27,960 bases of DNA from a virus. The notes beneath the pieces are model-generated. The model had not been told where the DNA came from, searched no databases, and was given only the letters and a program-made list of their open reading frames with translations. The stretch covers positions 1 to 27,960 of IMG/VR virus record IMGVR_UViG_3300009420_001815; one strand, given 5' to 3'. This document shows, piece after piece, positions 3,133 through 19,745 of the stretch. The translations under genes were made by a program, and so were the position numbers. Position 1 is the first letter of the stretch, and every line of letters starts with the position of its first letter.

Positions 3133-3951
3133 CTAGTTTCTTAATAAAACTTTGGCAAGATTTGACGTATCTGCACTTACTGTAGGCTTACTTACAACCC
3201 TAATCCAGTTAGCACTAACAGTAAATGTTTCATGTCTAATTTGTGTATTGGCTGTCATGTCAATGTTCTTTACATTAAACCAATCTGTGCTTACATCACT
3301 TGTTGCAGGAGAGCCTGTAATACAACTTGCTTGAACTGTAACTTGTCCTGTGTAAGCCGCTGTTGGGTAAACTGCAATAGTATGCTGTGAGTTTTGGAAG
3401 TTCTTTGCTAGGTTGCCAAACATTGCATTAGATACAAAAGTGTTAGCCGCATCTCCTTCATCTGTATCTGCTGTTTGGAAAAATGTTAGGTCTTGTTGGG
3501 TAGCAACAGGATCTTGGACAACTTGGTCAGAGACTTCTATCTCCATATTAGCATTTCCTTGTTGGTCGCTAAATAATGGTAGGCTGGATTGGTCTGATGA
3601 ATCGTTCTTAACGATATGCATCTGATATAATCCTCTGCCTAAGTTTTGTAAGTCGCCATCGGTTAATACTAATTTCACAACGCCGACATCAGAGGTATGT
3701 TCAAGTAACTTAGTTACTACCCTCGCTTTAGTTGTCGGAGATACTATATATGCATATAATGTATCTGCAAAAACGTTGTACTTTTTTCTGTCCTTGTTGG
3801 TGATGCTGAATAATAATTCATTGTTAACACCTTTATGGACTTTTAATTTTCTACTGTTCATAGGTCTGTTATCCAAAGTTATTGATGTATCAGTTGACAC
3901 TAAATCAATCGTAGTGTCATAAGAATACAATTTTGAGGTAAAGTTGCTCAT
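3133..3951 (-). CDS. Putative virion structural protein
   Basis: The protein has about 272 residues from the ATG at 3951 (MSNFTSKLYS). An upstream in-frame ATG at 4008 would overlap the divergent gene and the late promoter, so I reject it. The composition is threonine-, serine-, valine- and asparagine-rich with short alternating beta-like stretches and no catalytic motif, as in tail, baseplate or fibre-associated proteins. The first half (RKLKVHKGVNNELLFSITN, then a YIVSP segment) resembles beta-sandwich adaptor domains near the N terminus of tail or baseplate proteins, but this is an impression, not a match. A GATAAATA late box ends five bases before the ATG, placing it in the late virion class even though it lies among replication genes. 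There is no Shine-Dalgarno sequence. The structural role is inferred. Confidence 0.75.
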   Translation of the reverse strand: MSNFTSKLYSYDTTIDLVSTDTSITLDNRPMNSRKLKVHKGVNNELLFSITNKDRKKYNVFADTLYAYIVSPTTKARVVTKLLEHTSDVGVVKLVLTDGDLQNLGRGLYQMHIVKNDSSDQSSLPLFSDQQGNANMEIEVSDQVVQDPVATQQDLTFFQTADTDEGDAANTFVSNAMFGNLAKNFQNSQHTIAVYPTAAYTGQVTVQASCITGSPATSDVSTDWFNVKNIDMTANTQIRHETFTVSANWIRVVSKPTVSADTSNLAKVLLRN

Positions 3952-3990
3952 AACTGTATTTATCAAAAAATTAATATGGTAAATACAGTT
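3952..3990. promoter_or_regulatory. Palindromic divergent late-promoter region
   Basis: Eleven-base perfect inverted repeats (AACTGTATTTA at 3952-3962 and TAAATACAGTT at 3980-3990) flank a 17-base centre. Each arm carries a late-type box pointing outward: GATAAATA (3957-3964, minus) toward the gene at 3951 and GGTAAATA (3978-3985, plus) toward the gene at 3993. Both boxes lie five to seven bases from their ATG. Confidence 0.65.
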
Positions 3991-3992
3991 AC

Positions 3993-4355
3993 ATGACAGA
4001 AGCAACAAGCGAAATTGAATTCTTAACGGGCATTAGATATGCTGGCGCAGAATACGTCGGGATTATAGTAAATGCCGATAATCAGATACTCACGTTCTAT
4101 GATGCTGATCAGATCAGCAGTAGAGAGCTTAAGAAAGAATTTCTTGCACTCGGTGAGATATGGTGGTGGGAATCTAACCGTATGTTACCTATCGATGTAT
4201 TTTTACATCACGAAATGAGAGTATTTCGTCCTTTCCTTAAAACGTTTGCTATGAAAGATGTTGAGATTTTGTTTGGACCAGTTACAAGTCTACAGAATTT
4301 AATTAAGAAAAGAGTTAAAAGACGTTCAATACAATTAGTCAGAAAGACAGATTAA
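3993..4355 (+). CDS. Unknown 120-residue protein, divergent
   Basis: One of only two genes on the plus strand. The 120-residue protein is unrecognised: a short beta-rich N-terminal half (YVGIIVNADNQILTFYD), a tryptophan cluster (EIWWWES) near the middle, and a basic C-terminal tail (KKRVKRRS) that could bind nucleic acid or phosphate. There is no signal peptide. The start is set by the late-type box GGTAAATA seven bases upstream; no Shine-Dalgarno sequence is present, suggesting a nearly leaderless message. It is divergent from the virion-type gene at 3951. It converges without any gap on the minus-strand gene ending at 4356, with no terminator visible between them. Confidence 0.75.
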   Translation: MTEATSEIEFLTGIRYAGAEYVGIIVNADNQILTFYDADQISSRELKKEFLALGEIWWWESNRMLPIDVFLHHEMRVFRPFLKTFAMKDVEILFGPVTSLQNLIKKRVKRRSIQLVRKTD

Positions 4356-4925
4356 TTAACCTTCACACAACAAGTTAAGTTGTACTTTAATTGCCACAGC
4401 ATATGAATAAGAATGTGATTTCTTAAAGAAATAGATATCATCTTGTGGTTTAATCCAAACATCAGCTTCAATCTCTTCCCAGCTTTTACCAACTAAATGT
4501 CTTTTGCCTGGTCTAATCATAGCAAGTATCATTGCTAACTGGTCTATGTTTGTAGGTGGGTGTTGTTTTACAATACCAAAGTGATTGTTTATGTGAAACA
4601 ACTTTTCTACTATGTCTTGGTGCTCAAATAGTTCCCACATAACTTCATCGTTTAATAACTTTTCTAAATGTGCTTCATCTCTAACATCTTTATAAATGCT
4701 GTTGTTTAGTACATCAAGTTTAAACCAACCATCTTCTTCTGCTTGTTTATGATCTATCGAGCTGTAGGATTCTATTGGAAAGAAAGGAATGTTTTGTAGA
4801 TATACCCCTGTGTTGTGTTTTGTAAATTGTTCTTCTTTACAAATACTTGCAGGCGTATGTTGTATTACATCTAACAGTTTATCCCTGTTAAACATATCTA
4901 TATCTACATCAAAATCAAACTTCAT
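4356..4925 (-). CDS. Unknown protein, faintly DNA polymerase III alpha-like
   Basis: A 189-residue protein with no clear family assignment. The N terminus FDFDVDIDMFNRDKLLDVI recalls the PDxDIDF..xRdxvi motif of bacterial replicative polymerase (DnaE) catalytic subunits, and KHNTGVYLQNIPF recalls another part of that family. Only short pieces match and no complete polymerase domain is present, so catalytic activity is unlikely or at least unproven. Similar short proteins, as I recall, occur in marine T4-like phages as conserved hypotheticals. It is the last gene of the ligase/SHMT operon and its start overlaps the SHMT stop as TAATG, implying coupled translation. It abuts the convergent gene at 4355. 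Confidence 0.8.
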   Translation of the reverse strand: MKFDFDVDIDMFNRDKLLDVIQHTPASICKEEQFTKHNTGVYLQNIPFFPIESYSSIDHKQAEEDGWFKLDVLNNSIYKDVRDEAHLEKLLNDEVMWELFEHQDIVEKLFHINNHFGIVKQHPPTNIDQLAMILAMIRPGKRHLVGKSWEEIEADVWIKPQDDIYFFKKSHSYSYAVAIKVQLNLLCEG

Positions 4926-6061
4926 TATATAATGTCAGCCATTTGATCTGCTAAATCTCTAAACCATTGAGTATCATGTCCTTTAGTTGTTTCTGCCGCA
5001 GTACCTAATCTAATACCACTTGTTTCTATAAAACTTCTAGGATCATTTGGAATGCCATTTTTGTTTACAGTAATACCATTCATCTCTAATATGTTTGCCG
5101 CAGACTTACCGCTCATTCCTCTGTTTGTTAAATCAAGTAATATTATATGCGAATCTGTGCCATCTGTCAAGCATTTAAATCCATTTGCTGTAAGTTGTTC
5201 TGCAAATGCTTTTGCATTAATAACAACATCTTGTGCATACATACCAAAACTAGATGTGTTTGCTTCGACAAAGCATTGTGCTTTAGCGGCAATCATATTC
5301 ATTAAAGGTCCGCCTTGTGTGCCTGGGAAGATTGCACTATTAATACGCCTAGAATATTCTTGGTTGTTCCATAGTATAATACCCCCTCTAGGACCGCGTA
5401 GCGTCTTGTGTGTTGTACTTGACACTACATCAGCGAACTGTATAGGGCTAACGTATGCTTTACCGGCTACTAAACCGGCGTAATGTGCCATATCAACGAA
5501 TAGTATTGCGCCTATTTCATCTGCAATCTCTCTAAACTTTGCCCAATCCATCTGTCTAGGATATGCACTAGCACCTGCTATAATCATTTGAGGTCTAACT
5601 TCTTTTGCTTGTTCCATTATAGCATCGTAGTCTAAATACCCGTCAGCGTTTACGCCATAATGATGTGCTTGATAAATTTTGCCTGAGATATTTGGAGCAC
5701 TACCGTGACTTAAATGTCCACCACTTGCTAAATCCATTCCGAGTATTTTATCACCTGGTTCTAAAAATGCTTGGTAAACTGCTGTGTTGGCATTCGCTCC
5801 ACAATGTGGTTGCACATTAGCAAAGTTACAACCAAATAGTTTAGTAACTTCATCAATTGCCATGGATTCAATTTCATCCATATGATCGCAACCGTTGTAA
5901 TATCGTTTTCCTGGATAACCTTCTGCATACTTATTTGTAAATATACTTCCACTTAATTCCATTACAGCATCGCTGGCATAGTTTTCACTTGCTATAAGCT
6001 CAATTGTGTTGTTTTGTCTAGACGTTTCTCTACTGAGAATATCTTTTATTCTTTGATCCAT
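4925..6061 (-). CDS. glyA: Serine hydroxymethyltransferase
   Basis: The PLP enzyme converts serine and tetrahydrofolate to glycine and 5,10-methylene-tetrahydrofolate, the one-carbon donor for thymidylate synthesis. Family signatures are clear: IELIASENYAS at 20-30, KYAEGYPGKRYYNGC, FVDMAHYAGLVAG with the PLP-ring aspartate near 190, and STTHKTLRGPRGG with the Schiff-base lysine at 219. At 378 residues it is shorter than the usual 410-430, mainly at the C-terminal end and in small loops, but all catalytic motifs are present. It sits in the ligase operon; the methylene-folate product is the substrate of the ThyX enzyme encoded at 10555-11229. A late-like GGTAAATA box ends five bases before the ATG, so late expression in addition to read-through is possible. 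Clearly an auxiliary metabolic gene of cellular origin. Confidence 0.95.
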   Translation of the reverse strand: MDQRIKDILSRETSRQNNTIELIASENYASDAVMELSGSIFTNKYAEGYPGKRYYNGCDHMDEIESMAIDEVTKLFGCNFANVQPHCGANANTAVYQAFLEPGDKILGMDLASGGHLSHGSAPNISGKIYQAHHYGVNADGYLDYDAIMEQAKEVRPQMIIAGASAYPRQMDWAKFREIADEIGAILFVDMAHYAGLVAGKAYVSPIQFADVVSSTTHKTLRGPRGGIILWNNQEYSRRINSAIFPGTQGGPLMNMIAAKAQCFVEANTSSFGMYAQDVVINAKAFAEQLTANGFKCLTDGTDSHIILLDLTNRGMSGKSAANILEMNGITVNKNGIPNDPRSFIETSGIRLGTAAETTKGHDTQWFRDLADQMADII

Positions 6062-6783: not shown

Positions 6784-7044
6784 TTACGGTTTTTCTCCTG
6801 ATTCTTCTAACCTTTTAGCATCCTCAATATCATCTGATTCATCATGTTCAGTTGGATGATAAATTGGTTCTAATTCTTCTTGCATTTTTTCTGATTCAGT
6901 CCATGCGTTGAGCTTTTTGAGCTCTTTGTCTACAATCTTCTCGAGCACCTCTAGGTCAGGCATAGAGTCACGGTCCTCTTCATCCATGATCTTTCTCTCT
7001 GGATTTTTTTTACCTAAACTTTTATTAAGATCTTCTGAATTCAT
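6784..7044 (-). CDS. Unknown highly charged 86-residue protein
   Basis: A short, strongly charged protein dominated by glutamate, aspartate and lysine, with a likely helical centre (LEVLEKIVDKELKKLNAWTESEKMQEEL). No domain is recognised. It begins one base after the ligase stop and ends ten bases before the cupin start, so it is translated within the ligase operon. Its charge and likely disorder would suit a protein-protein adaptor or DNA-mimic protein, but this is speculation. The reading frame being free of stops and tightly packed between two convincing genes supports it as real. Confidence 0.75.
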   Translation of the reverse strand: MNSEDLNKSLGKKNPERKIMDEEDRDSMPDLEVLEKIVDKELKKLNAWTESEKMQEELEPIYHPTEHDESDDIEDAKRLEESGEKP

Positions 7045-7045
7045 A

Positions 7046-8317
7046 TTACAGTTTTTCGCCTACTTCGAACCCCCTGAACGTTTTGAAGCGTGGGAACCTA
7101 AGACTCCAAACATCATCAGCGTCTTGACTTTGTGTAGCCGCATCAGCTCTAATTTCAACTAACTGGCCAATTACTTCATCTTTAACTGCCCAAACATCCT
7201 TACGCATGTCGTCTGTTAATCCGCTACCAACATTAAGATGGAAATCTTTCCCATCATCGTTGCCTTCAACAATAAACGCACCAAGCATATCAGTATTTTT
7301 ACCTGTACCCTCTTCAACGCCTACTACTGTAAGTGTAACTTCAATAAACGGCTTGATCTTTAACCATGCATGTGAACGTTTACATTTATATCCATCATCC
7401 GCGGGTTTAATCATTAGACCCTCATAGCCTTCGTCTAACGCAAGTTTGTTCATCTCTTTGAACTTTACTTGTCCTTCGTCTAAGTCAAGGTTAACGAGCG
7501 TTGCTTCAACTAATTGAATTCTATGGTTAAACGAGCTACTCAACTGAGTTAGCCTATCACGTCTATCAATAGCAGACATCTTAGTGCCGCCTTCGTTAAA
7601 TTCTTCAAGTGTTAGCATGTCAAATACTGCTAGGTATGAATCCTCGGTCTGAGCGCCTTCTTTCCTATGCACTTGTCTCATAAGTGTCTGGAAGTCTTCC
7701 GACATAACTTCACCATCAAATACTAAGCCTTCAAACTCTGGCTTACTTAATGCTTCGTTAATGTGTGGGAAGTTTTCTAGCAACTTACCATTACGTGAAT
7801 ATAATGTAGCATCACCGTTTTTAACAATAGCAATAACTCTAACGCCATCGTATTTGTATTCAATATAACATACTCCAGCAATCTTCTTAGGATGTTTAGC
7901 ACCGTCATGTGCTAACATACAACCAAATAGTGGAATAGTATCTTTCTTTACTTTGTTAAACAGTTTAGCACCAGTACCACAACGTAGGTCTTTGATAAGA
8001 ATCCTACGGTACCAATCGTTCCATTGGTCAATGTATGACTCGTCTGCTAATTCTTGTATAGCATCACGAGCCGCATGTCCAGTTAACTGTCTTGCAATTA
8101 ACTTGTCTGCAAGTTCTACAAATTGTTCCCATTCAACACCTGTGCCTTGCGTGTCTGTGATAGGCACTTGCTTAACACCAAATGTTACAAGAGGATCAAG
8201 ACACATTGTAGCACCAGTAATAAACTGCTCATTGTTGATGTTATCAGCAAGTACTGATTGCTTGAATAGTGAACTGTTATCGCTCTCTAACTGTTGAATT
8301 ATTTTGTGTGGTGTCAT
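7046..8317 (-). CDS. 30: ATP-dependent DNA ligase (T4 gp30-like)
   Basis: This enzyme seals nicks during lagging-strand synthesis, recombination and repair. The 423-residue protein has an N-terminal helical domain (about 1-125), then the nucleotidyltransferase core with EYKYDGVR (adenylated lysine about 155), YSRNGK, FDGEVM, and EGLMIKP (motif IV/V region), and a C-terminal OB-fold with WLKIKPF. These are the ordered motifs of ATP ligases. I chose the ATG at 8317, not the upstream frame at 8341, because GGGGTGA lies six bases before it and it overlaps the preceding stop as ATGA. The length is somewhat less than T4 gp30 (487). It is the second gene of an operon starting at the 8574-8601 promoter. 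Confidence 0.95.
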   Translation of the reverse strand: MTPHKIIQQLESDNSSLFKQSVLADNINNEQFITGATMCLDPLVTFGVKQVPITDTQGTGVEWEQFVELADKLIARQLTGHAARDAIQELADESYIDQWNDWYRRILIKDLRCGTGAKLFNKVKKDTIPLFGCMLAHDGAKHPKKIAGVCYIEYKYDGVRVIAIVKNGDATLYSRNGKLLENFPHINEALSKPEFEGLVFDGEVMSEDFQTLMRQVHRKEGAQTEDSYLAVFDMLTLEEFNEGGTKMSAIDRRDRLTQLSSSFNHRIQLVEATLVNLDLDEGQVKFKEMNKLALDEGYEGLMIKPADDGYKCKRSHAWLKIKPFIEVTLTVVGVEEGTGKNTDMLGAFIVEGNDDGKDFHLNVGSGLTDDMRKDVWAVKDEVIGQLVEIRADAATQSQDADDVWSLRFPRFKTFRGFEVGEKL

Positions 8318-8538
8318 GATGTCACCCCGTCTATTTCCCAATTGCCGTCATTGTAATCAATGCCTGTTCTACTAGAAACACTTTTAAAAACCCTATCTTC
8401 TAATAGGTAACTTTTAACATGGTCTCTGCTTTCATCAGCGGCTAAACTAGCCAGCCACCATATTGCTTCGAGACTCGAAAGTGGCTCAGAAGCAGGAATG
8501 TCTGTTGCTAAATGGGTTAAATTTAAAGTAAATTTCAT
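8314..8538 (-). CDS. Unknown 74-residue protein, first gene of the ligase operon
   Basis: A short unrecognised protein with a likely central helix (SLEAIWWLASLAADESRDHVKSYLLEDRVFKSV) and no signal peptide. It is preceded by an excellent ribosome-binding site (TAGGAGGA, about five bases before ATG) and a consensus early promoter. Its stop overlaps the ligase start as ATGA. It is therefore certainly translated. It may mainly serve as a strong leader cistron for ligase, or be an early takeover protein; sequence alone gives no function. Confidence 0.8.
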   Translation of the reverse strand: MKFTLNLTHLATDIPASEPLSSLEAIWWLASLAADESRDHVKSYLLEDRVFKSVSSRTGIDYNDGNWEIDGVTS

Positions 8539-8573
8539 AAAATCCTCCTACAAATTAATTAACTTATGTACAT

Positions 8574-8601
8574 ATTATAGCAAATATTAGCTATTTGTCA
8601 A
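8574..8601 (-). promoter_or_regulatory. Sigma70-type early promoter of the ligase operon
   Basis: On the minus strand GGTTGACA, a 16-base spacer and TGCTATAAT (extended -10). Predicted start about 8567, giving a leader of about 28 bases with TAGGAGGA before the ATG at 8538. Confidence 0.9.
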
Positions 8602-8604
8602 CCA

Positions 8605-8793
8605 TTAAAGTGTACTGTTTGTGGTGTATATCTCAATATCCGCACCATTTGTAGTGTTTAAAGTGTGCATAATTAGGTCTACAGTACCGTTATTGTCTAT
8701 ATCGTGCATAAACCCAGCAGTATCCTTATGCAGATTGTTAACTTCGTTAGCCTTCGTGTACGCCAAGTATGCCTGGGTTAATCCATTCTGCAT
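8605..8793 (-). CDS. Possible small protein with calcium-loop-like motif
   Basis: An open frame of up to 71 residues; the first ATG (8820) lies deep inside the upstream gene, so the ATG at 8793 or a TTG further in are alternatives. The C-terminal half contains DIDNNGTVDLI, which resembles the DxDxxGxxD loop of FG-GAP, dockerin or EF-hand repeats. No signal peptide. It overlaps the preceding gene by about 47 bases and ends just upstream of the ligase-operon promoter. No clear ribosome-binding site. It could be a remnant of a longer protein. Confidence that it is a real gene is moderate to low. Confidence 0.4.
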   Translation of the reverse strand: MQNGLTQAYLAYTKANEVNNLHKDTAGFMHDIDNNGTVDLIMHTLNTTNGADIEIYTTNSTL

Positions 8794-9001
8794 ACAATCC
8801 GTTTTTGTCAAGAATATCAACTACAATTTGGTTAACACCAAACAGTCCAAAGCCTTGATCATAGTAATCGGCCCATTGAGTTGAATCATTGTATTCTGCA
8901 CTAATACGGAAAAACCTATCGTCGCCATAGTCGTCGCCTTCTATAACTGGTGCACCGAGGTTTTTTAAAGCAGTAAAAGCCTTTTTATAATTACGTTGCA
9001 T
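8747..9001 (-). CDS. Unknown 84-residue protein
   Basis: An acidic, aromatic-rich small protein (DYGDDRFFRISAEYND, WADYYDQGFGLFGVN, LYAEWINPG). I recall similar short proteins in marine T4-like phages, always without known function. It starts three bases after the preceding gene's stop, which implies translation from the same message driven by the promoter at 9298-9325. No strong ribosome-binding site is seen, consistent with coupling. No catalytic motif is recognised. Confidence 0.75.
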   Translation of the reverse strand: MQRNYKKAFTALKNLGAPVIEGDDYGDDRFFRISAEYNDSTQWADYYDQGFGLFGVNQIVVDILDKNGLYAEWINPGILGVHEG

Positions 9002-9004
9002 TTG

Positions 9005-9262
9005 TTAAACGGCTTCTATCATTGAAAGCGGAACATTGTAACTACCTTGCGGAAGTTGGACAATTGCTTTCTTGATGTTTATTTTTGTAACAGTACCCAA
9101 AGTTTTTTTAGTCTTTTGGACAACGTATACTTTATCACCAATTGAAATACTAGTTTTAGCATTCATCACTTTCACAGCACTAATATAAGCACCAAGTTCG
9201 TTAAGTTCTGCTAAACTAAAGTTACCACTTTGAATGGCTTTTTTAATATCTATCATGTTCAT
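9005..9262 (-). CDS. Unknown 85-residue protein with SH3/KOW-like C-terminal half
   Basis: The protein has a short helical N-terminal part (IKKAIQSGNFSLAELNELGAYISAV) and a beta-rich C-terminal part (SIGDKVYVVQKTKKTLGTVTKINIKKAIVQL). The latter has the look of a small SH3- or KOW-type barrel, as found in RNA- or ribosome-binding proteins. That fold suggestion rests on pattern, not alignment. A clear ribosome-binding site (GGTAGGAG) lies about seven bases upstream and a consensus early promoter above it, so strong immediate-early expression is expected. A second in-frame ATG two codons on could also serve as the start. Confidence 0.8.
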   Translation of the reverse strand: MNMIDIKKAIQSGNFSLAELNELGAYISAVKVMNAKTSISIGDKVYVVQKTKKTLGTVTKINIKKAIVQLPQGSYNVPLSMIEAV

Positions 9263-9297
9263 ATAAAAACTCCTACCTTTTTATTTAATATACAACT

Positions 9298-9325
9298 ATT
9301 ATAGCAAATATCTAGTTTTTGTCAA
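9298..9325 (-). promoter_or_regulatory. Sigma70-type early promoter
   Basis: GGTTGACA, a 16-base spacer and TTGCTATAAT on the minus strand; full -35, full -10 and extended -10. Predicted start about 9291. Drives the 85- and 84-residue genes. Confidence 0.9.
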
Positions 9326-9329
9326 CCGC

Positions 9330-9566
9330 TTATTTGCTATCAGTAATAGTGTATCGTTTTAAGTCAATGCCTAATCGTGCCTTTAGCATGTTATCCAGGA
9401 TAGGCAAGTAACCATTATAAAATGCAGTAGCTTCTTCAAAATTTAATTCTATATCAAATTCGGCTACTGTTGAAGGTCGTGTGTCAGCTCCACTAGTGTT
9501 ATTAAGCCAGTCAGCAGTAAATGTATTACCTGGAACAGGGTCGATACGTTTTACTGATATCATCAT
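9330..9566 (-). CDS. Unknown 78-residue protein
   Basis: A small acidic protein with a likely alpha-helical C-terminal half (FDIELNFEEATAFYNGYLPI, then a stretch ending RLGIDLKRY). I do not recognise it. The ATG at 9566 is preferred to the one at 9575, because the AAGGA ribosome-binding site would abut the earlier codon but is well spaced for the later one; another ATG follows immediately. No clear promoter lies directly upstream, so it is probably transcribed from 9870-9897 with the preceding gene. An imperfect palindrome lies between the two genes. Confidence 0.65.
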   Translation of the reverse strand: MMISVKRIDPVPGNTFTADWLNNTSGADTRPSTVAEFDIELNFEEATAFYNGYLPILDNMLKARLGIDLKRYTITDSK

Positions 9567-9645
9567 TGCAATCATCCTTATAGTCTATGTTGTGTGTAAA
9601 TTCTACTAGATTTTACGCAAATAAGTTATGCCATGTGTAAATTAG

Positions 9646-9837
9646 TTAGTTTATTACTTGCACAATGTAAGCGGGTTTAGTTGGATCAATGATTAGATCT
9701 AGATTTGAAACTGCTATTGGCATACCTGGGCGCCATCCTTTAGCACGATCATATTGGTTGAAGTGCTCAACGAATGCGGCTTCTAGTTGTACTTCTTGTT
9801 GTGTATCAATGCAAAGCTCTTGTCGTATAGTAGGCAT
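9646..9837 (-). CDS. Unknown 63-residue protein
   Basis: A very small soluble protein of unknown function (FVEHFNQYDRAKGWRPGMPI in the centre). No motif is recognised. It is supported as a gene by its position about 26 bases below a strong early promoter start site and by AGAGAAG before the ATG. Its size and early promoter fit a host-takeover or counter-defence protein, which is only a guess from position. Confidence 0.7.
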   Translation of the reverse strand: MPTIRQELCIDTQQEVQLEAAFVEHFNQYDRAKGWRPGMPIAVSNLDLIIDPTKPAYIVQVIN

Positions 9838-9869
9838 ATACTGCTTCTCTTTTGCGTAAGTAAGTGTAT

Positions 9870-9897
9870 ATTATACTACAATACCAGTTTTTGTCAA
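9870..9897 (-). promoter_or_regulatory. Sigma70-type early promoter
   Basis: GGTTGACA, 16 bases, TATAAT on the minus strand, without an extended -10. Predicted start about 9863. It drives the 63-residue gene and faces away from the plus-strand gene at 9923. Confidence 0.88.
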
Positions 9898-9906
9898 CCG
9901 TTTTAG

Positions 9907-9914
9907 GCTAAATA
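9907..9914 (+). promoter_or_regulatory. Possible late promoter box
   Basis: GCTAAATA on the plus strand, eight bases before the ATG at 9923. It matches TATAAATA at six of eight positions and has the short box-to-ATG distance seen at other late genes here. It is the only promoter-like signal before this gene. Confidence 0.4.
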
Positions 9915-9922
9915 GTCATATA

Positions 9923-10558
9923 ATGTCCAATAAAACTCCCAATAAAACTTTTATTTTTCAGGCGGATGCTGTGGTTTGTATAGATTGTTGGGGTATGCCA
10001 GTATGGAATACCTTAGACTTTGATAGTCATGCAGACTTCACTGCTAAACATTTTGAAGCATATTTGAATGATTTTTTAAAAGGATTTGAACCAGCACTAA
10101 ACAGATACTGCTTTGATACATTTATAAGTGCAACATACAAGAATGGCGGACTAGAACAAGAACCTGGCTTTTCTCCACTGCATAAAAGATACAAGTACAA
10201 TTGTAATCCTGAGTGGGTAATGTTACATGATGCACAAATGAAAGATATAGTTAGTATGGTTCCGAAGAATGGTAAAATAATTGTAGGTGGCGGATCATGG
10301 GGTCACTGTTCTCATAATAGACCAGTTGGTATTAGGAACTTATTAAGAGAAGGCTTTAGAGTATTTACTAATAGCCATTTAGTATTTCGTGAATCGGAAG
10401 CCATTAACTATACCTATGAAGGCAATCATGGCGCATTGCCTCTAGAATACTTCATATTGGACGATATACTATGGTCCAGATGCTACGATGAAGGTCATTA
10501 CTACGATCACTTATATGAAGGAATGATACACCCTGGCATACCTACAAAAAATACTTAG
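9923..10558 (+). CDS. Unknown 211-residue protein on plus strand
   Basis: The second plus-strand gene. The protein is soluble, with an N-terminal FIFQADAVVCIDCWGMPVW and a central IIVGGGSWGHCSHNRPVGIRNLL that together look like an alpha/beta fold, rather like a hydrolase or nucleotide-binding enzyme; the cysteine, histidine and glycine placement does not identify a family. No signal peptide. Histidine- and tyrosine-rich C-terminal part (YDEGHYYDHLYEG). It is preceded by a weak late-type box and no Shine-Dalgarno sequence. Its stop overlaps the stop of convergent thyX by about three bases, with no terminator between. Late timing and a virion or lysis-stage role are possible but unproven. Confidence 0.8.
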   Translation: MSNKTPNKTFIFQADAVVCIDCWGMPVWNTLDFDSHADFTAKHFEAYLNDFLKGFEPALNRYCFDTFISATYKNGGLEQEPGFSPLHKRYKYNCNPEWVMLHDAQMKDIVSMVPKNGKIIVGGGSWGHCSHNRPVGIRNLLREGFRVFTNSHLVFRESEAINYTYEGNHGALPLEYFILDDILWSRCYDEGHYYDHLYEGMIHPGIPTKNT

Positions 10559-11229
10559 ATCGCGTTGTTTTTAAAATCTTCTGCTAATGGGAATATTTTA
10601 GTAATAGCATCTGCTACAGCATGAGCTAATTCCATGTGTTCTAATTGTGTTCCATTAGCACCACGTAACTCTATATAATGTATCCAACTACGCAACGTAC
10701 CATTAACGTACAGGCGGCTTAACGTGTTTCCTTCAGGTAGTACTACTCTGGCCTGCTCTTTAGCAATACCTTTGCTTACAGCGAAGTTGTATGCGTCTAA
10801 GGCGGCGTCTATAACTCGTTGTTGCCTGTTTTTCCATTCGCCTTGAAGTACGGAATGTCCATCCATCTCAGGATCAAGTTCAATACTGTTTTGTCTATTA
10901 ACAGGATCTTGCAATCGTGCTTGTCTAATTTCAAACGACAAGTCTTTTGTTGGATCTGCATAACGCTGACTAAACTCTTGGAAACTAAAACTTCTATGCC
11001 TTAGCAATTGCCTAGCGATGTCCCTAGTTGTCTCTATTTCCAAACATGCTGAAACCATTTCTAGTGGGCTCCAATGTTTGTGCTTCATAAGATACTTAAC
11101 AAGTTTTTCATTTGTTTCTTTATTGTTTTGATTCTCTGGATTGCTTACTCTTGCACAATAGGCAATCAAGTCTAATGCTGACTCGTTATAATCTGGTGCT
11201 TGGCTGTGACTAATAATCTTTACTTTCAT
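10555..11229 (-). CDS. thyX: Flavin-dependent thymidylate synthase
   Basis: The enzyme makes dTMP from dUMP using methylene-tetrahydrofolate and reduced FAD, without producing dihydrofolate. The ThyX signature RHRx7S is present (RHRSFSFQEFS at 77-87), followed by QRYADP. HWSPLEM near 52 and the C-terminal RSWIHYIELR with QLEHMELA are other family landmarks. The length of 224 is typical. Its ATG overlaps the preceding stop as ATGA, making it the last gene of the UvsW-MetK operon. SHMT encoded at 4925-6061 makes its folate substrate. Common in marine phages, where dTMP supply matters for AT-rich genomes. Firm identification. Confidence 0.96.
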   Translation of the reverse strand: MKVKIISHSQAPDYNESALDLIAYCARVSNPENQNNKETNEKLVKYLMKHKHWSPLEMVSACLEIETTRDIARQLLRHRSFSFQEFSQRYADPTKDLSFEIRQARLQDPVNRQNSIELDPEMDGHSVLQGEWKNRQQRVIDAALDAYNFAVSKGIAKEQARVVLPEGNTLSRLYVNGTLRSWIHYIELRGANGTQLEHMELAHAVADAITKIFPLAEDFKNNAI

Positions 11230-11933
11230 ATTCCTGCTTCCTTACATGTGAATTGTATTCTTTCTACTTCTTCTGGACTCTTAGCAAAAACGCTTAACCA
11301 AAACTTTGCTTCAATAATATGATTAACCATACCAATTTGCTCATTGTTAAATCTAGTTAATAATGACCCACCTGTCTCACTTAAATAAAGTAACCAAGGA
11401 GAGATTTTTGCACTACGCAAATCATATACTGCTCTTGCACTACTTACTGTATTAAAATAGTCTTGCCAATCGCAGTTGTTTTCTTCACCCCATGTTGCTA
11501 GATACATAATGTTACGTTCTAACGCTCGGAGACCTGATTCTTTTCTAACATACTGCAACAAGAACTCATCATACACAGAATCCTTACTCCAGTCTGCTAA
11601 CTTCTTTGCTTCATTAATTAACCAAGCGGCAAACTTCTCAGGTTCTAAGTAATCATTTAACACACAACTCCTACCAAACTTCGTAAACCCTTCATAGTAC
11701 TGACTACGAATAAAGTCTTCCATTGATTTACTTTTAGTTGCAGAAGTGTTTAACTCATAAAACAGTTGAAACACTCTATAACCTAATCTAATGTGTGTTA
11801 GGTCTTTGTCTGCCCAACGTCTTTTTTTAGGACACATATGGACACTCAAAGTTCTGTCAGATTTAAACCCTTTGTTACACCACTTGCATTGTGGATTACT
11901 TTCCGAAGATGTCTTTGATTGTTTTGTCGTCAT
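11226..11933 (-). CDS. Unknown protein with N-terminal zinc finger
   Basis: About 235 residues from the ATG at 11933, which is chosen because AAAGG lies about nine bases upstream and the earlier codon at 11951 is a TTG. The N terminus carries a C-x2-C ... H-x-C type zinc finger (CKWCNKGFKSDRTLSVHMC), followed by a basic patch (PKKRR), both suggesting nucleic-acid binding. The rest is helical and tryptophan-rich without a known domain. It overlaps the preceding gene by 38 bases and thyX by four. A DNA-, RNA- or replisome-binding function is plausible from the finger and the context beside recombination genes, but not shown. Confidence 0.8.
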   Translation of the reverse strand: MTTKQSKTSSESNPQCKWCNKGFKSDRTLSVHMCPKKRRWADKDLTHIRLGYRVFQLFYELNTSATKSKSMEDFIRSQYYEGFTKFGRSCVLNDYLEPEKFAAWLINEAKKLADWSKDSVYDEFLLQYVRKESGLRALERNIMYLATWGEENNCDWQDYFNTVSSARAVYDLRSAKISPWLLYLSETGGSLLTRFNNEQIGMVNHIIEAKFWLSVFAKSPEEVERIQFTCKEAGI

Positions 11934-12366
11934 ATCCGTTTGCCTTTGCAAAATCTTTTAAATCGTCTTTACTGTTTATACTTAGCATTAGCTCTAGTTC
12001 GTCGCTCTTAAGATGTGGGTAAACACTTAGTATAAATGCACTTACTTTATCCTTTTTCTTTCTACTGTTTGGTGGCTTAATGTAAGGGTGGAACTCAATC
12101 TTGCCTGTGCCACATGCACTTAATAGTAACCACTGCAACTCTGGATGCTTATAAATATCTTCAAAGTCTTTGTTTACTAATTCATTAACCATAAACAAAA
12201 AGTTTGGAGCGTTTTTTCCTTGAACACTACTAGCATACCTCATCATCATCCAAGTACTAAATGCTTTTTGCTTTTCTGGAGTTAATTGATTATACCAGCC
12301 TTTGTTTCTCTTGTCCAAAGCCGCCATAACTTCTTTTAATGGTAATGCTGGTGCCTTCTTAGCCAT
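11896..12366 (-). CDS. Possible clamp-loader small subunit (gp62-like)
   Basis: A 156-residue, lysine-rich helical protein. The pattern WYNQLTPEKQKAFSTWMMMRYASS, then VNELVNKDFEDIYKHPELQW, then LELMLSINSKDDLKDFAKANGY matches my memory of clamp-loader small subunits in marine T4-like phages, which are poorly conserved with T4 gp62 (187 residues). No catalytic motif is expected in that subunit. Against this, the gp44 partner gene is not in the window and gp62 is usually its neighbour. The start overlaps the MtnN stop by eight bases. Treat as a moderately supported suggestion; otherwise a conserved unknown. Confidence 0.75.
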   Translation of the reverse strand: MAKKAPALPLKEVMAALDKRNKGWYNQLTPEKQKAFSTWMMMRYASSVQGKNAPNFLFMVNELVNKDFEDIYKHPELQWLLLSACGTGKIEFHPYIKPPNSRKKKDKVSAFILSVYPHLKSDELELMLSINSKDDLKDFAKANGYDDKTIKDIFGK

Positions 12367-12919
12367 TCGTTAATCTCTCATACTGTTCAATGTAATGTGG
12401 TTCTCCATTAGCAACATTCTCATGCCAATCATCTTTAGATTCTTCGTTTGCATTATCACTTACATACTTGTAACAATGAAACTTTATATCTCTGTCTGCT
12501 TTAATAACTGCTTTTGCAATAGCATAGGCTTCCATATCAACAACATCTGATTTTATTGTTAAGTCAGAATCTGTAACAAAGTTGTCGCCTGTGCTACATA
12601 TTAATGCATCATACTGAAAGCAAATTGTCGTGTAATGCTCAAAAGGAGTTATACCTTCTTGTACTCCCATCGGTTGACATAACATATCACGTTGTACAAA
12701 ATTACCTACATGATGTAGTCCGCCTAAATCATGCGTTATTCCGCCCACCGTTCCAAAATTATATACATGCTCACATTCCGGATAACGTTCTAATAATGTT
12801 GCTGTTGTGACTGCCGCATTAACCTTACCTACTCCTGTAAAAAATACGTTGTCCCATTTAGCCATTGCAGGGGCTTCTTGCTCTAATGCTATCAAAATTA
12901 TATCTTTAATACTATTCAC
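12359..12919 (-). CDS. mtnN: 5'-methylthioadenosine/S-adenosylhomocysteine nucleosidase
   Basis: The enzyme cleaves adenine from S-adenosylhomocysteine, methylthioadenosine or 5'-deoxyadenosine, relieving product inhibition of SAM-dependent enzymes. Family residues are visible: the N-terminal acid in ALEQEAP (equivalent of E. coli Glu12), GVGKVNAA, NFGTVGG, VDMEAYAIAKA (Glu174 equivalent, contacts ribose) and VSDNANEE (catalytic aspartate). At 186 residues it is shorter than the usual 230, mostly in loops after the GTVGG strand. No ATG exists at the 5' end; a GTG at 12919, overlapping the Apt stop, or a TTG at 12931 must be the start. It directly follows apt, whose substrate is the adenine it releases. 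Confidence 0.88.
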   Translation of the reverse strand: MNSIKDIILIALEQEAPAMAKWDNVFFTGVGKVNAAVTTATLLERYPECEHVYNFGTVGGITHDLGGLHHVGNFVQRDMLCQPMGVQEGITPFEHYTTICFQYDALICSTGDNFVTDSDLTIKSDVVDMEAYAIAKAVIKADRDIKFHCYKYVSDNANEESKDDWHENVANGEPHYIEQYERLTNG

Positions 12920-13460
12920 CTTCGAATTCAATTAGTTTATTTACGTTATATCCTTGTTCTTTTATTATAGCACACCCACCCAGATCGGGCAAGTCTATTA
13001 CTGCAAGTATTAGTATATTTTCTTTAGGCACATTAAAACATTCGTGTACTAAATCCGCACAGGCTAGTGCTGTTCCACCTGTTGCAATTAAATCATCTAT
13101 AATAACAATATTGTCGTGCTCAGTTATATCTGTAACCTTTTGTATTTCTAAACTTGTACTTCCGTACTCTAGATCAAAATCACGTTTATATGTTTCGTTT
13201 GGCAACTTGCCTGGTTTCCTTGCCATTACAAACGGAATACCTAAGTCTCTGGCAATTGGTGCTCCAAAAACAAATCCTCTACTTTCAATACCAATAATTT
13301 TAGTAGCATTCATAGATAATGATGTTAAATCCATCAATGCTTTATTAAATGCTAGTGGTTCTTCTATTAGGCTAGTTATATCTCTAAACTGTATACCTGG
13401 AATAGGAAAGTCTGGAACAGTTCTTATGATTTTTTTCAAATCAATATCATAACTGCTCAT
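12912..13460 (-). CDS. apt: Adenine phosphoribosyltransferase
   Basis: The enzyme converts adenine and PRPP to AMP and pyrophosphate. The family landmarks are complete: DFPIPGIQFRDITSL at 17-31, GIESRGFVFGAP at 58-68, RKPGKLPNET, and the PRPP-binding loop VIIDDLIATGGTA at about 119-131. The 182 residues match bacterial Apt. The ATG at 13460 overlaps the metK stop as ATGA and is preferred to a frame extension at 13484. It lies between metK and mtnN in the same operon, so it can recycle adenine released by MtnN from SAH. This turns a SAM-using process into a supply of AMP, possibly useful for an AT-rich genome. Identification is firm. Confidence 0.95.
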   Translation of the reverse strand: MSSYDIDLKKIIRTVPDFPIPGIQFRDITSLIEEPLAFNKALMDLTSLSMNATKIIGIESRGFVFGAPIARDLGIPFVMARKPGKLPNETYKRDFDLEYGSTSLEIQKVTDITEHDNIVIIDDLIATGGTALACADLVHECFNVPKENILILAVIDLPDLGGCAIIKEQGYNVNKLIEFEGE

Positions 13461-14554
13461 AATTTCAAATCTACTTTTTCCCAAGGCATTTCTTCTTTAC
13501 CAAAGTGCCCATAGTTTGTTGTTTGTGTTAAATCTAAATCAAATAAATTAAATCTATCTATAATTCCTTTAGGAGTTAGATCAACATTATCACGGAAGTA
13601 ATCTGCAAACTCTTTTCTTACAATGCCATCTGCATAAACATACAAACTAGTTGGCTCTTTAACACCAATAGCATAACTAAGTTGTACAGTACAATTTTCT
13701 GCTTTACCGTTTGCTACAATGTTCTTTGCCAAGTAGCGAGCCATATATGCGGCCGATCGGTCGACTTTAGTACAGTCTTTACCGCTAAATGCACCCCCAC
13801 CATGTGGAGCATACCCCCCATAAGTATCAACAATAATTTTACGTCCAGTAACACCAGTATCTCCATCGGGTCCTCCAATAACAAATTTTCCTGTAGGGTT
13901 AATTAACCATTCAGTGTGTAGTAAATCTACTTTATCTTTAACCACCGGCAATATAATATCCATTACACGGTCTCTAACTTCTTCTATAGATATTTTCCAG
14001 GAATGCTGAGTACTACACACAATAGTTTTAATACTCACTGGCTTCCCAATGTCGTCATAATAAAAAGTAACCTGTGCTTTACTATCTGGACCTAACCAAT
14101 CTGCGCCTTCAACGGTTCTAGCATTATCTAATGCTTCAAGTATCTTATGACTGTAATAAATTGCACTAGGCATATAGTTTGATGTTTCGTTACAAGCATA
14201 ACCAAACATTAACCCCTGGTCGCCTGCACCAAAGTCATCAGTTCCTAAAGCAATGTCTGGTGATTGTCCGTGCAATTCATTGTATACTCTTAAATGCTTC
14301 CAATGAAAACCATCTTGCTCATATCCAATTTCTCTAACCGTGTGTCTAACAATTTTTTCAATTTCGTCTTTGTCGAACCTATCGCTTTTATATTCGCCTG
14401 CTACAGTAACCATATTAGTTGTTACTAGTGTTTCTACAGCCGCCCTGTGATTAATGTTGCCTGCAATTAAGTATGTTGCTACAGCATCACTAATTGCATC
14501 TGCTACCTTGTCTGGGTGTCCTCTACTAACACTTTCGCTAGTGAATTCATACAT
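13457..14554 (-). CDS. metK: S-adenosylmethionine synthetase
   Basis: MetK makes SAM from methionine and ATP. Signatures are intact: GHPDK at 12-16 with the catalytic histidine, the GAGDQGLMFGY hexapeptide region at 109-119, GGPDGDTGVTGRK at about 227-239, and GGGAFSGKD at 252-260. At 365 residues it is close to bacterial MetK (about 384), slightly short. The ATG overlaps the preceding stop as TAATG and its own stop overlaps apt as ATGA. Its product would feed methyltransferases whose by-product SAH is handled by the downstream MtnN. MetK is not a standard T4-like gene, so it is most likely acquired from a bacterial source. No missing catalytic residue is apparent. Confidence 0.96.
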   Translation of the reverse strand: MYEFTSESVSRGHPDKVADAISDAVATYLIAGNINHRAAVETLVTTNMVTVAGEYKSDRFDKDEIEKIVRHTVREIGYEQDGFHWKHLRVYNELHGQSPDIALGTDDFGAGDQGLMFGYACNETSNYMPSAIYYSHKILEALDNARTVEGADWLGPDSKAQVTFYYDDIGKPVSIKTIVCSTQHSWKISIEEVRDRVMDIILPVVKDKVDLLHTEWLINPTGKFVIGGPDGDTGVTGRKIIVDTYGGYAPHGGGAFSGKDCTKVDRSAAYMARYLAKNIVANGKAENCTVQLSYAIGVKEPTSLYVYADGIVRKEFADYFRDNVDLTPKGIIDRFNLFDLDLTQTTNYGHFGKEEMPWEKVDLKL

Positions 14555-16512: not shown

Positions 16513-16541
16513 ATTATACACTACTTATATACTACTGTCAA
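16513..16541 (-). promoter_or_regulatory. Consensus sigma70 promoter for uvsW operon
   Basis: TTGACA, 17 bases and TATAAT, a perfect match to the sigma70 consensus. The -35 lies inside the last codons of the TonB receptor gene (TTG ACA encode Leu-Thr) and the spacer holds its stop. The start site is at about 16505-16506, at the uvsW ATG. Confidence 0.92.
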
Positions 16542-19224: not shown

Positions 19225-19261
19225 ATTTGCCTCCCACAGCAATTATTTAATTTACTAGTAT

Positions 19262-19289
19262 ATTATAACATCGATTTACTATTTGTCAA
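19262..19289 (-). promoter_or_regulatory. Sigma70-type early promoter, proximal to ATPase gene
   Basis: GGTTGACA, 16 bases, TGTTATAAT on the minus strand. Predicted start about 19255, giving about a 30-base leader with GGGAGG. Confidence 0.88.
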
Positions 19290-19340
19290 CCATTCAGTTG
19301 AACTAGTTAAAATCTTTGTTTAATTCCTAACTATCCAACT

Positions 19341-19368
19341 ATTATAGCAAGAATCTAGTATTTGTCAA
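19341..19368 (-). promoter_or_regulatory. Sigma70-type early promoter, distal to ATPase gene
   Basis: GGTTGACA, 16 bases, TTGCTATAAT on the minus strand, about 79 bases upstream of the proximal promoter. The -35 overlaps the acpS stop. The two promoters in tandem should give strong ATPase expression. Confidence 0.88.
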
Positions 19369-19745
19369 CCGGTTTCTAGTACTACAGTTGCTAAAGAGTG
19401 CATATTTGTGTCTGAAATAGTGACATGAGTGCTAGTAATTTGCTCATTTTCCATCAATTCTTTGAGCTTTCCTAGGGGTGTTAGCACGGGTTTTCCTAGT
19501 GAATCTCTATGTATTTCCATGTTTGTAAAGATAACTTCGTTCCTAATACCAGTGCCAAATGCCTTAGAGATTGCTTCTTTGCATACATATTGATTTGCTA
19601 AGTATTTGATTGCTTTAGATTCTGACAGATTTTTAAACACATCATACTCATATGCTGTTAGCACTTTTAATGCTAAGTTAGTGCTTCGTTTGTAATCACT
19701 TAGTCTACTAATCTCTAAGATGTCGTTTCCGATACCATAAATCAT
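19365..19745 (-). CDS. acpS: Holo-[acyl-carrier-protein] synthase
   Basis: AcpS transfers the 4'-phosphopantetheine arm from CoA to a serine of acyl carrier protein, activating fatty-acid or related carrier proteins. The 126-residue protein has the family's two signatures: GNDILEISR (Asp8, metal-binding) at 6-14 and VCKEAISKAFGTGIRN at 54-69 with Glu57. LGKPVL at 83-88 and HVTISDTNMHSLATVVLE at the end are the other expected segments. E. coli AcpS has 126 residues, so the protein looks complete. No carrier protein gene is in this window, so the target would be the host ACP or one encoded elsewhere in the phage. It is the last gene of the gp32-UvsX unit; no strong ribosome-binding site. Very uncommon for a phage. 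Confidence 0.92.
   Translation of the reverse strand: MIYGIGNDILEISRLSDYKRSTNLALKVLTAYEYDVFKNLSESKAIKYLANQYVCKEAISKAFGTGIRNEVIFTNMEIHRDSLGKPVLTPLGKLKELMENEQITSTHVTISDTNMHSLATVVLETG

Follow-up and report, generated by a model that had tools for sequence, protein, structure and literature searches.

In T4-type phages, promoter early stem-loop cassettes (PeSLs), the subject of work by Arbiol in 2010 and Comeau in 2014, have reportedly been proposed to serve gene shuffling. These PeSLs are repeated host-type promoter units set between small variable genes, as outlined in the part of PMC4503421 drawn on here. Hypervariable islands, that is variable regions between conserved modules, are described for pelagimyophages and cyanomyophages in an excerpt of PMC7029224, which presents middle and late promoters of pelagimyophages as not definable and, within that excerpt, does not describe a repeated promoter-leader unit. 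For jumbo phages, an excerpt of PMC7824862 describes a possible polymerase subunit, a small protein of SH3 fold encoded next to certain DNA polymerase genes. Among the titles and abstract openings listed in literature searches, no description of a promoter-leader module of the kind reported below was found.

The locus considered here lies in a window of 27,960 nucleotides, the whole stretch of viral DNA that was analysed, from a relative of the PA5oct group of jumbo phages; its nearest isolates suggest a probably marine origin. We regard it as fairly probable that its block of small genes (8605-9897) is an accessory-gene hotspot of self-promoted cassettes that resembles PeSLs in function and includes a probable small nucleic-acid-binding regulator.

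A variable slot and its promoter-leader modules

The block sits in a slot between two conserved genes, and the interval was compared across 70 related loci carrying both flanking genes (57 distinct interval sequences, with the window pieces L001-L003 left out of all locus statistics). It measures 658 bp or less in 27 of the 70 loci, none of which showed a window gene, 903-1,993 bp in 28 (22 with thyX alone and 6 with none), and more than 3 kb in 15, reaching 6.3 kb in the window. This spread, from 658 bp or less to over 3 kb, upholds the variable region that the sequence-only reading had proposed; the block, taken together, is not universally conserved, although the 85-aa gene recurs in very different phages. 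The slot mates are metabolic, namely ATP-dependent DNA ligase (7046..8341, minus strand), an accessory member of the slot, serine hydroxymethyltransferase (glyA) and thymidylate synthase (thyX), and the gene content between modules differs among L005, L007, L008, L045 and the window. Divergent from the block, a 211-aa gene with no assigned function (9923..10558, plus strand) is kept at this place in L004-L008. A megablast search of the region against phage isolates gave no match.

Two near-consensus promoters and a third close by had been read from the letters alone, and all three are exact 12/12 matches to TTGACA-16-TATAAT on the minus strand, in the block and at its edge (9897-9870, 9325-9298 and 8601-8574). 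Across the whole window, 7 perfect matches were observed, whereas 100 dinucleotide shuffles gave 0.06 on average; one of the 7 (5142-5170) falls within the glyA coding region, and the remaining three lie before gene 18190-19242 (two) and gene 15048-16505 (one). At a loose threshold of 9 of 12, positions 7000-12000 held 17 sites against 16.7 expected, with no excess, and the weight therefore rests on the near-perfect sites only. Judged by sequence, the promoters of the block are confirmed as real and sigma70-type with a host-type sequence, from which early expression of the block may be read. No terminator-like site was found in the block, and neither a tRNA nor an Rfam family at gathering score was found in the window.

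The earlier description of strong, dedicated promoters is supported, and it extends to a repeated module of which each of the three promoters is the front. In this module, of about 70 bp, GG-TTGACA and TATAAT stand 16-17 nt apart and are followed by an AT-rich leader (about 20-25 nt), a Shine-Dalgarno site and the start codon. It also precedes unrelated genes in other phage contigs. Copy P1 (9837..9904, minus strand; 33.1 bits), containing the perfect promoter at 9897-9870, stands before the 63-aa gene. Copy P2 (9263..9331, minus strand; 57.2 bits) stands before the 85-aa gene, with its place and sequence type alike in relatives and other phages, and copy P3 (8541..8606, minus strand; 41.5 bits) directly follows the stop codon of a gene remnant and precedes the 74-aa gene and the DNA ligase gene. 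A tandem pair on the minus strand (19326..19375, 33.8 bits, and 19240..19294, 21.8 bits) precedes gene 18190-19242.

A module profile trained on 27 sequences from 19 sources, with a match cut-off of 12 bits, gave 175 matches in 79 of 178 sources not picked for the module, 121 of them in 60 sources without a training row. The order-3 Markov control yielded 0 matches against 366 in the real set, which also included loci fetched by the module pattern. Among 85 distinct modules of at least 20 bits (excluding lower scores, late starts in the model and identical sequences), a complete downstream ORF follows 79 by raw count, in 23 clusters at blastp 1e-4, and in 60 a same-strand stop of a 40-codon frame lies within 120 nt upstream, at a median of 9 nt. 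When whole records were searched, the exact pattern was present in 10 of 15 (window counted), on a single strand in each positive record and in two or more copies in 8 of the 10, and the reversed control pattern in 0 of 15; it was not found in the isolates HTVC008M, Melnitz-3 and DSS3_MAL1 or in records G011 and G006. A blastn search of the module against phage isolates returned 189 records, and the lowest E among the 30 listed, 0.05, was taken as uninformative. The listed records come from a scatter of phages, among them those of Staphylococcus, Salmonella and Lactobacillus. Folding of the three block copies against shuffles gave z values of 0.35 for P3, -0.02 for P1 and -2.6 for P2, so that P2 alone among them folds better than shuffles. 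The idea of a shared hairpin around the Shine-Dalgarno sequence (AAAAA-GGTAGGAG-TTTTT) was rejected, because its energy is weak and no better than that of shuffles, and because neither L005 nor L007 keeps it.

A possible but clearly less probable explanation is that these are ordinary host-type promoters, whose likeness would come from selection, in an AT-rich genome, for the sigma70 consensus and a good Shine-Dalgarno site, with no cassette mobility. In keeping with it, modules occur before the core-like AAA-type gene (18190-19242) as often as before the 85-aa gene (14 each in the sample) and are therefore not a mark of accessory genes alone, the spacers between the hexamers vary freely among copies, and perfect promoters without the GG are the majority (127 of 175). 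However, the likeness passes beyond the hexamers into the leader, with 41 nt at 97.6% between window positions 9303-9263 and L166, where a different gene follows, and L005 carries three copies before three unrelated genes within 2.6 kb. The GG is also strongly associated with a Shine-Dalgarno site, found 15-45 nt downstream in 21 of 48 perfect promoters with a preceding GG against 6 of 127 without it, and in 0.9% of random windows. These observations suggest that the module may move as a unit; common descent with strong selection on promoter and leader could produce the same picture.

Small genes of the block and the 85-aa family

The five small genes proposed from the letters alone exist as ORFs of 63, 81, 85, 84 and 71 codons, and four of them score as coding, whereas the 71-codon ORF is a remnant. 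The statement that no family is recognised holds at the level of curated families (Pfam, PHROGs, NCBIfam and PADLOC); phage families do exist, though, for the 85-aa and 84-aa proteins. A sixth small gene, of 74 aa (8314..8538, minus strand), is part of the block, standing behind the third promoter and running into the DNA ligase gene. The 63-aa ORF (9646..9837, minus strand) is acidic, has the least clear coding score of the four and ends in a C-terminal motif, N-x-DLIIDPTKPAYIVQ, common to otherwise different small phage ORFs; of 10 stretches with this motif, four (L275, L278, L279 and L280) have it within long frames that are unrelated and were left out of the count of tails. The 81-aa ORF (9330..9575, minus strand), also acidic, has coding-like codon usage, and no relatives of it were found.

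It seems rather unlikely that the small genes encode proteins for host takeover or counter-defence that appear immediately after infection. Such proteins are usually acidic, with few or no relatives, as are the 63-aa and 81-aa proteins (pI 4.8 and 4.7), and the genes are small and variable and lie in a variable slot under host-type promoters. Against this role stand the metabolic slot mates and the 85-aa gene, which looks too widespread to track the defence of one host; PADLOC matched 0 of 7 proteins, a result that tests little with a library of defence systems.

The 85-aa gene (9005..9262, minus strand), behind module P2, scores as coding and belongs to a widespread phage family with homologues at 65 IMG/VR loci and in Pelagibacter and Methylophilales phages, and the protein is therefore no local orphan. 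Bacterial genomes gave 1 locus, on a MAG contig titled Synechococcus. Family members measure about 82-98 aa and are basic, with a pI of 9.3-10.1 in 35 of 35, and codon comparison of the 85-aa and 84-aa genes with relatives gave dN of 0.15-0.21 and dS of 0.7-1.5, the latter near saturation. A promoter with at least 11 of 12 consensus bases is present in 35 of 45 distinct upstreams of the gene and lacking in 10, compared with 38 of 277 other genes with room for one, and the module at 20 bits or more is present in 14 of the 45; these upstreams, like the 85 modules, share descent, so that test values overstate their independence. The 45 sequences collapse 61 of the 65 loci plus the window, with L021, L050, L061 and L068 dropped for a short upstream or weak match. 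Upstream of the isolate homologues, the promoter matches 11/12 in Melnitz-3 and 9/12 in HTVC008M.

The predicted model of the 85-aa protein (pLDDT 87, pTM 0.61) comprises an N-terminal helical hairpin and a five-strand SH3/KOW/Tudor-type barrel. The modelled barrel superposes on the PHF1 Tudor (Z 8.8, 1.5 A, 50 residues) and on Spt5 KOW2-KOW3 (4ytl; Z 8.0, 1.8 A, 47 residues), with the aligner placing background at Z 7-8, and a Foldseek search against the PDB gave E values no better than 2e-3; SH3-like barrels are common. The protein itself gave no match to Pfam KOW (PF00467) up to E 1, and 1 of the 35 family members matches it, at 0.0052. Pfam and PHROGs returned several weak matches for the protein (E 0.008-0.16), none at curated level, and the profile libraries returned scattered weak matches for the 35 relatives. 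A KOW-like pattern can be seen by eye around G42-G56. In the model just two helices precede the barrel, with no NGN domain, and Y75 is the sole aromatic among invariant or nearly invariant family columns, with no aromatic cage evident from conservation. Models of two BFVD proteins from uncharacterised phage entries, A0A6J5QBE2 and A0A7S5Y9L8, resemble it (TM 0.69 and 0.61), and AGE60381.1 of Pelagibacter phage HTVC008M is a 59% sequence match; all three are uncharacterised, being unnamed or listed as 'hypothetical protein' in tables. As modelled, the 85-aa protein is most likely a small basic nucleic-acid-binding protein of KOW/SH3-barrel type, and it may act on transcription or translation soon after infection.

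Whether it is instead a virion or replication accessory protein, and not a regulator, we consider doubtful. SH3-type barrels are present in many phage structural proteins. The possible polymerase subunit described in the excerpt of PMC7824862 is likewise a small SH3-fold protein; however, no virion or polymerase gene stands beside the 85-aa gene in the window, its surroundings vary from phage to phage (although baseplate genes stand about 1 kb off in HTVC008M), and its own host-type promoter would point to early expression. Seven loci were left unplaced by the simple gene caller in this neighbour comparison (L033, L034, L036, L040, L043, L044 and L061).

The 84-aa gene and the adjoining remnant

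The 84-aa gene (8747..9001, minus strand) starts 3 nt past the stop codon of the 85-aa gene and encodes an acidic protein with homologues in other IMG/VR contigs, phage DSS3_MAL1, and Roseobacter and Caulobacter phages. The ORF is complete, scores as coding and has homologues of about equal length. Its fold model (pLDDT 74) reached a best Z of 6.3, with trehalose-phosphatase-like chains, which is not above background, and in the comparison with viral models E fell below 0.001 for a CcrPW homologue only.

The 71-codon ORF (8605-8820) has a TTG start and shares 74 bases with the 84-aa gene. Roughly its first 30 codons score as non-coding; the part that reaches to 8820 is out of frame, whereas the final 39 codons (8605..8724, minus strand) match the C-terminus of an FG-GAP lipoprotein-like protein of about 490 aa. 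By these matches, the ORF is not a gene but the tail of a lost gene. The large gene is kept in 6 of 6 syntenic relatives fetched (in L004 it runs off the contig), and its L005 copy scores 31.1 bits with the FG-GAP_3 profile against a cut-off of 26.9. Homology to L171-L173 spans exactly the 84-aa ORF (9002-8747), homology to L005 resumes at 8724, and the module after the remnant is the one that follows the large gene in L005, L007, L008 and L045. Of 18 tblastn rows for the 71-aa ORF, L171 and L174 reflect the out-of-frame overlap with the 84-aa gene and not the remnant. In other phages an 89-aa family lies near the 85-aa gene; its apparent tie to the 71-aa ORF proved wrong, the family being a different one.

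Comparison with the relatives thus shows a state in which the large gene is lost and the 84-aa gene occupies its place, with deletion and replacement seen in one contig and the order of events conjectural. An assembly chimera or a single frameshifted gene is very improbable, for although the junction occurs in the window's contig only and the large gene stands there in the 6 syntenic relatives, the 84-aa ORF is complete and about as long as its homologues, the remnant runs into the same module as the large gene does, and a frameshift is no explanation because the two parts match different proteins.

Proposed organisation and comparison with known systems

In the accessory-hotspot reading that we favour, the slot would be filled with one- or two-gene cassettes, each with its own host-readable module of about 70 bp, often placed a few bases past the previous stop codon. 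With transcription and translation signals both in the module, a gene could be swapped in or out while expression is kept, and the repeated modules may provide short homologies for recombination. One such swap would have removed the large gene behind the 85-aa gene, leaving its last 39 codons, and inserted the 84-aa gene. The product of the 85-aa anchor gene, by its modelled fold, would bind nucleic acid and might act on transcription or translation soon after infection. A bolder proposal, which we hold to be unlikely, is that several unrelated phage backbones share a portable expression unit for gene exchange, with promoter, leader and ribosome site as one conserved 70-bp block. In this proposal the 85-aa protein, whose gene is among those that most often follow the module in the sample, would be a phage regulator without a name so far. 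As infection begins it would bind RNA polymerase, mRNA or ribosomes, and it might act on the leaders of module-bearing genes. Module and protein do not always co-occur, which argues against action on the leaders of module-bearing genes: G015 and G016 (perhaps incomplete) carry modules without the 85-aa gene, and G011 and two isolates carry the gene without the module pattern.

Should the module prove to be a mobile expression unit, this would account for the swapping of small genes without loss of expression and would give a sequence by which to find accessory genes transcribed by the host in uncultured phages. The 85-aa family, which keeps a strong promoter of its own across widely differing phages, is a good candidate for biochemistry. 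Short ORFs in such blocks may be debris, as one of the five here is the tail of a deleted gene.

The 85-aa protein shares its modelled barrel and basic character with KOW, SH3-like and Tudor proteins such as ribosomal L24, the KOW domains of NusG/SPT5 and Tudor domains, but unlike them it stands alone, has an N-terminal helical hairpin and falls below Pfam thresholds. The block resembles the pelagimyophage and cyanomyophage islands, as far as the excerpt cited at the outset describes them, in being a variable region between conserved genes. Like the PeSLs, the module appears from its sequence to be a host-type promoter repeated between genes of variable regions; unlike them, it seems to have no general stem-loop or terminator, judging from the folding of the three block copies, from the terminator search in the block and from the distance between the upstream stop codon and -35, with a median of 9 nt in 60 of the 85 modules. 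The conserved part of the module, in contrast to that of PeSLs, extends downstream through leader and Shine-Dalgarno site to the start codon, and its setting is a jumbo phage group and other contigs rather than T4-type phages.

Phage setting and the variable slot

The window, an IMG/VR virus record of 27,960 bases, encodes a terminase that shares 58% identity with its counterparts in Pseudomonas jumbo phage PA5oct and relatives. The conserved gene at 11226-11951 matches 61 isolate records; the 20 matches listed (32-39%) are all to PA5oct-like and other phages >280 kb. A related IMG/VR record of 339,794 bases carries the terminase (68%), the ligase (74%) and a relative of the 85-aa small protein (49%). 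Nearly all long ORFs of the window lie on the minus strand. The closest isolates are phages of Pelagibacter, Methylophilales and Roseobacter, which suggests a marine habitat.

Several other minus-strand genes are of note. The product of 16521-18101 contains the plug domain of TonB-dependent receptors (PF07715, 4.7e-7), has tblastn matches in 36 of 166 loci and is a predicted phage-borne protein resembling outer-membrane receptors; 19365-19745 encodes a phage 4'-phosphopantetheinyl transferase (AcpS-like, PF01648, 4.3e-12). Genes for metK, adenine phosphoribosyltransferase and an MTA/SAH-nucleosidase-like protein, the last scoring below its own family cut-off, stand in a row at 12359-14554, with 4925-6061 and 10555-11229; glyA and thyX lie in the same region, and the set could serve S-adenosylmethionine remaking and adenine recycling.

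Related phages share the order metK, apt, 11896-12366, 11226-11951, a variable slot, 4356-4925, 3133-4008 and 2125-3099, some genes being missing or truncated in some relatives. Both borders of the slot are present in 70 loci (57 distinct). In 27 of them the slot measures at most 658 bp with no window gene detected; in 28 it spans 903-1,993 bp, holding thyX as the sole window gene in 22 and no window gene in 6; and in 15 it exceeds 3 kb. This spread supports the proposal of the sequence-only reading that the small-gene block lies in a variable region. The window's slot, at 6.3 kb, also holds thyX, ligase and glyA by family matches, and the 85-aa gene occupies the slot of three distinct phages among the 70 loci (L005, L008, L045). 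Ligase, 84-aa and 85-aa genes also occur on fetched stretches, all partial contigs, that share few or none of the other window genes; the 119-kb contig L171 pairs the 84-aa gene with a 74-aa relative and carries an 85-aa relative (69%) some 74 kb off. The takeover or counter-defence roles that the sequence-only reading also proposed for the small genes are hypothetical. The area's only long plus-strand gene (211 aa, 9923-10558), without a family match, keeps its place in L004-L008 and has a different one in L045.

Small genes and the trace of a larger one

The strong promoters previously proposed for the block are borne out by three perfect TTGACA-16-TATAAT sites on the minus strand, at 9897, 9325 and 8601, before the 63-, 85- and 74-aa genes respectively. 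Window-wide, 7 perfect sites were observed against 0.06 expected; a scan of 7000-12000 at the loose threshold of 9 of 12 bases gave no enrichment (17 found, 16.7 expected). ORFs of 63, 81, 85, 84 and 71 codons are present in the block. A score of codon usage, for which 25 long window ORFs served as the training set, groups the 63-, 81-, 85- and 84-aa ORFs and the adjoining 74-aa gene (8314-8538) with coding sequence. The 71-aa ORF, in its overlapping first part (8725-8820, 30 codons scored), groups with non-coding frames, as do two plus-strand ORFs. The earlier observation is therefore partly confirmed: the five ORFs exist, and the 71-aa ORF is the remnant of a larger gene.

Residues 33-71 of this ORF share 77.5% identity with the C-terminal end of a protein of 488 aa, encoded directly 3' of the 85-aa gene in both L005 and L006. 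Proteins of the same cluster (488-506 aa) follow the 85-aa gene in L005, L006, L007, L008 and L045, and in L004 the same large ORF runs to the contig end, placing the large gene in all six loci syntenic with the window. By eye, the N-terminus of these proteins is signal-like and closes with GCGG, similar to a lipobox, and the L005 copy has an FG-GAP_3 match. In relatives, lipoprotein-like proteins of ~490-510 aa (L005:8268-9734, L045:8269-9753, L073, L102, L109) are encoded behind the 85-aa gene or at other places in the slot. Because similarity of window DNA to L171-L173 (9002-8747) covers exactly the 84-aa ORF, and similarity to L005 resumes at 8724 and extends through the promoter to 8533, the 84-aa gene appears to have replaced the large gene, leaving 39 codons of it, which is a new point. 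The 84-aa ATG lies three bases past the 85-aa stop codon, and the Shine-Dalgarno stretch preceding this gene in L171 is, by eye, absent at that place in the window.

The 84-aa family includes members in DSS3_MAL1 (58%), Roseobacter phages CRP-13 and CRP-207 (48-49%) and Caulobacter phages CcrPW and CcrColossus (35%); structure modelling and matching assigned it no fold. Chained blastp matches and weak direct ones (E 0.003-0.007) tie the 74-aa gene to ORFs of 122-123 aa, and since these fill the space between promoter module and ligase in L152, L155, L157, L158, L160 and L161, the 74-aa gene may be ligase-linked. A search for relatives of the 81-aa ORF found none, and the 63-aa ORF has a C-terminal motif alone in common with other small ORFs. 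This NPDLxLDPTKPAYIVQ-like motif (9646-9711, minus strand; also L177, L180, L276, L277) occurs behind four different N-terminal parts and is possibly a short docking or stability tag.

The 85-aa protein and its promoter

Relatives of the 85-aa protein are encoded at 65 IMG/VR loci (best segments 33-81% identical), 6 of them syntenic with the window, and in isolates by Pelagibacter phage HTVC008M (59%; two records, one genome) and four Melnitz phages (49%); the bacterial collection yielded one contig. In an alignment of 35 members, G42, V45, V47 and P78 are invariant, K36, K50, K52 and G56 are among the near-invariant residues, and the pI is 9.3-10.1 throughout. The model (pLDDT 87, pTM 0.61) has helices at 3-12 and 17-38 and five strands from 44 onward, and in structure searches it resembles barrels of the Tudor and KOW types, with a best Z of 8.8 and Foldseek E-values of 2e-3 or above. 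The viral models that rank first are uncharacterised phage proteins, and the barrel is also common to SprT-like proteins of giant viruses. PDB sequence profiles match weakly in the same direction (L24 at 0.05, SPT5 at 0.14), and one of the 35 members matches Pfam KOW, at 0.005.

A promoter of at least 11/12 stands in 35 of 45 distinct upstream regions of the family, starting 57-68 nt before the start codon in 33 and 79 nt in two, compared with 38 of 277 other genes having at least 50 nt of room; among isolates, Melnitz-3 has 11/12 at -61 and HTVC008M 9/12 at -59. This gene therefore mostly keeps a host-type promoter of its own across differing phage contexts. A widespread family of predicted barrel proteins with a mostly conserved private promoter is a further new point, and the small basic barrel and host-type promoter suggest, as the best interpretation, an early factor that would bind nucleic acid.

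A repeated promoter-leader module

The DNA 5' of the 85-aa gene resembles that 5' of a 171-aa gene and of the ligase in L005, of the 74-aa gene's relative in L007 and L008, and of still other genes in L157, L160, L162, L166 and L171. This repeated module, a new point as well, consists of GG-TTGACA, 16-17 nt, TATAATA, in many cases preceded by TGC, a leader rich in A+T (80% over 22 nt) and a Shine-Dalgarno site, AAAAAGGTAGGAG or similar, followed by the start codon. With a profile of 27 such sequences, five copies are detected in the window: one each before the 85-, 74- and 63-aa genes, and a tandem pair before 18190-19242. The profile gives 175 matches in 79 of the 178 sources that had been fetched independently of the module (the window included), 121 of them in 60 sources without any training row.

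Among 85 distinct copies (≥20 bits), a complete ORF of at least 30 codons starts adjacent to 79, and a same-strand frame of at least 40 codons ends within 120 nt upstream of 60 (median 9 nt). The adjoining ORFs fall in 23 clusters, the commonest, partly determined by the way loci were fetched, being the 85-aa gene (14), gene 18190-19242 (14) and the 74-aa gene with its relatives (12). The same sources hold 175 distinct perfect promoters versus 4 in a Markov-2 control, and a Shine-Dalgarno site lies 15-45 nt downstream of 21 of 48 preceded by GG versus 6 of 127 others (Fisher p 3e-9, related sequences counted as independent). The exact pattern occurs in 93 IMG/VR stretches and in 10 of 15 whole records picked for containing loci of interest, on one strand only in each and in two or more copies in 8 of the 10; it was not found in G011, G006 and the isolates HTVC008M, Melnitz-3 and DSS3_MAL1, and a reversed control pattern had no match in the 15.

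At the copy before the 85-aa gene, a 10-bp inverted repeat (ATAGCAAATA / TATTTGCTAT; 9301-9340, minus strand), not seen by eye in L005, joins the 81-aa gene end to the -10 region; of 200 shuffled versions of 9255-9345, 199 fold less well than the native stretch. The module would work like the promoter early stem-loop cassettes (PeSLs) of T4-type phages, but since it shows no general stem-loop of the kind that gives these their name, we do not class it as a PeSL.
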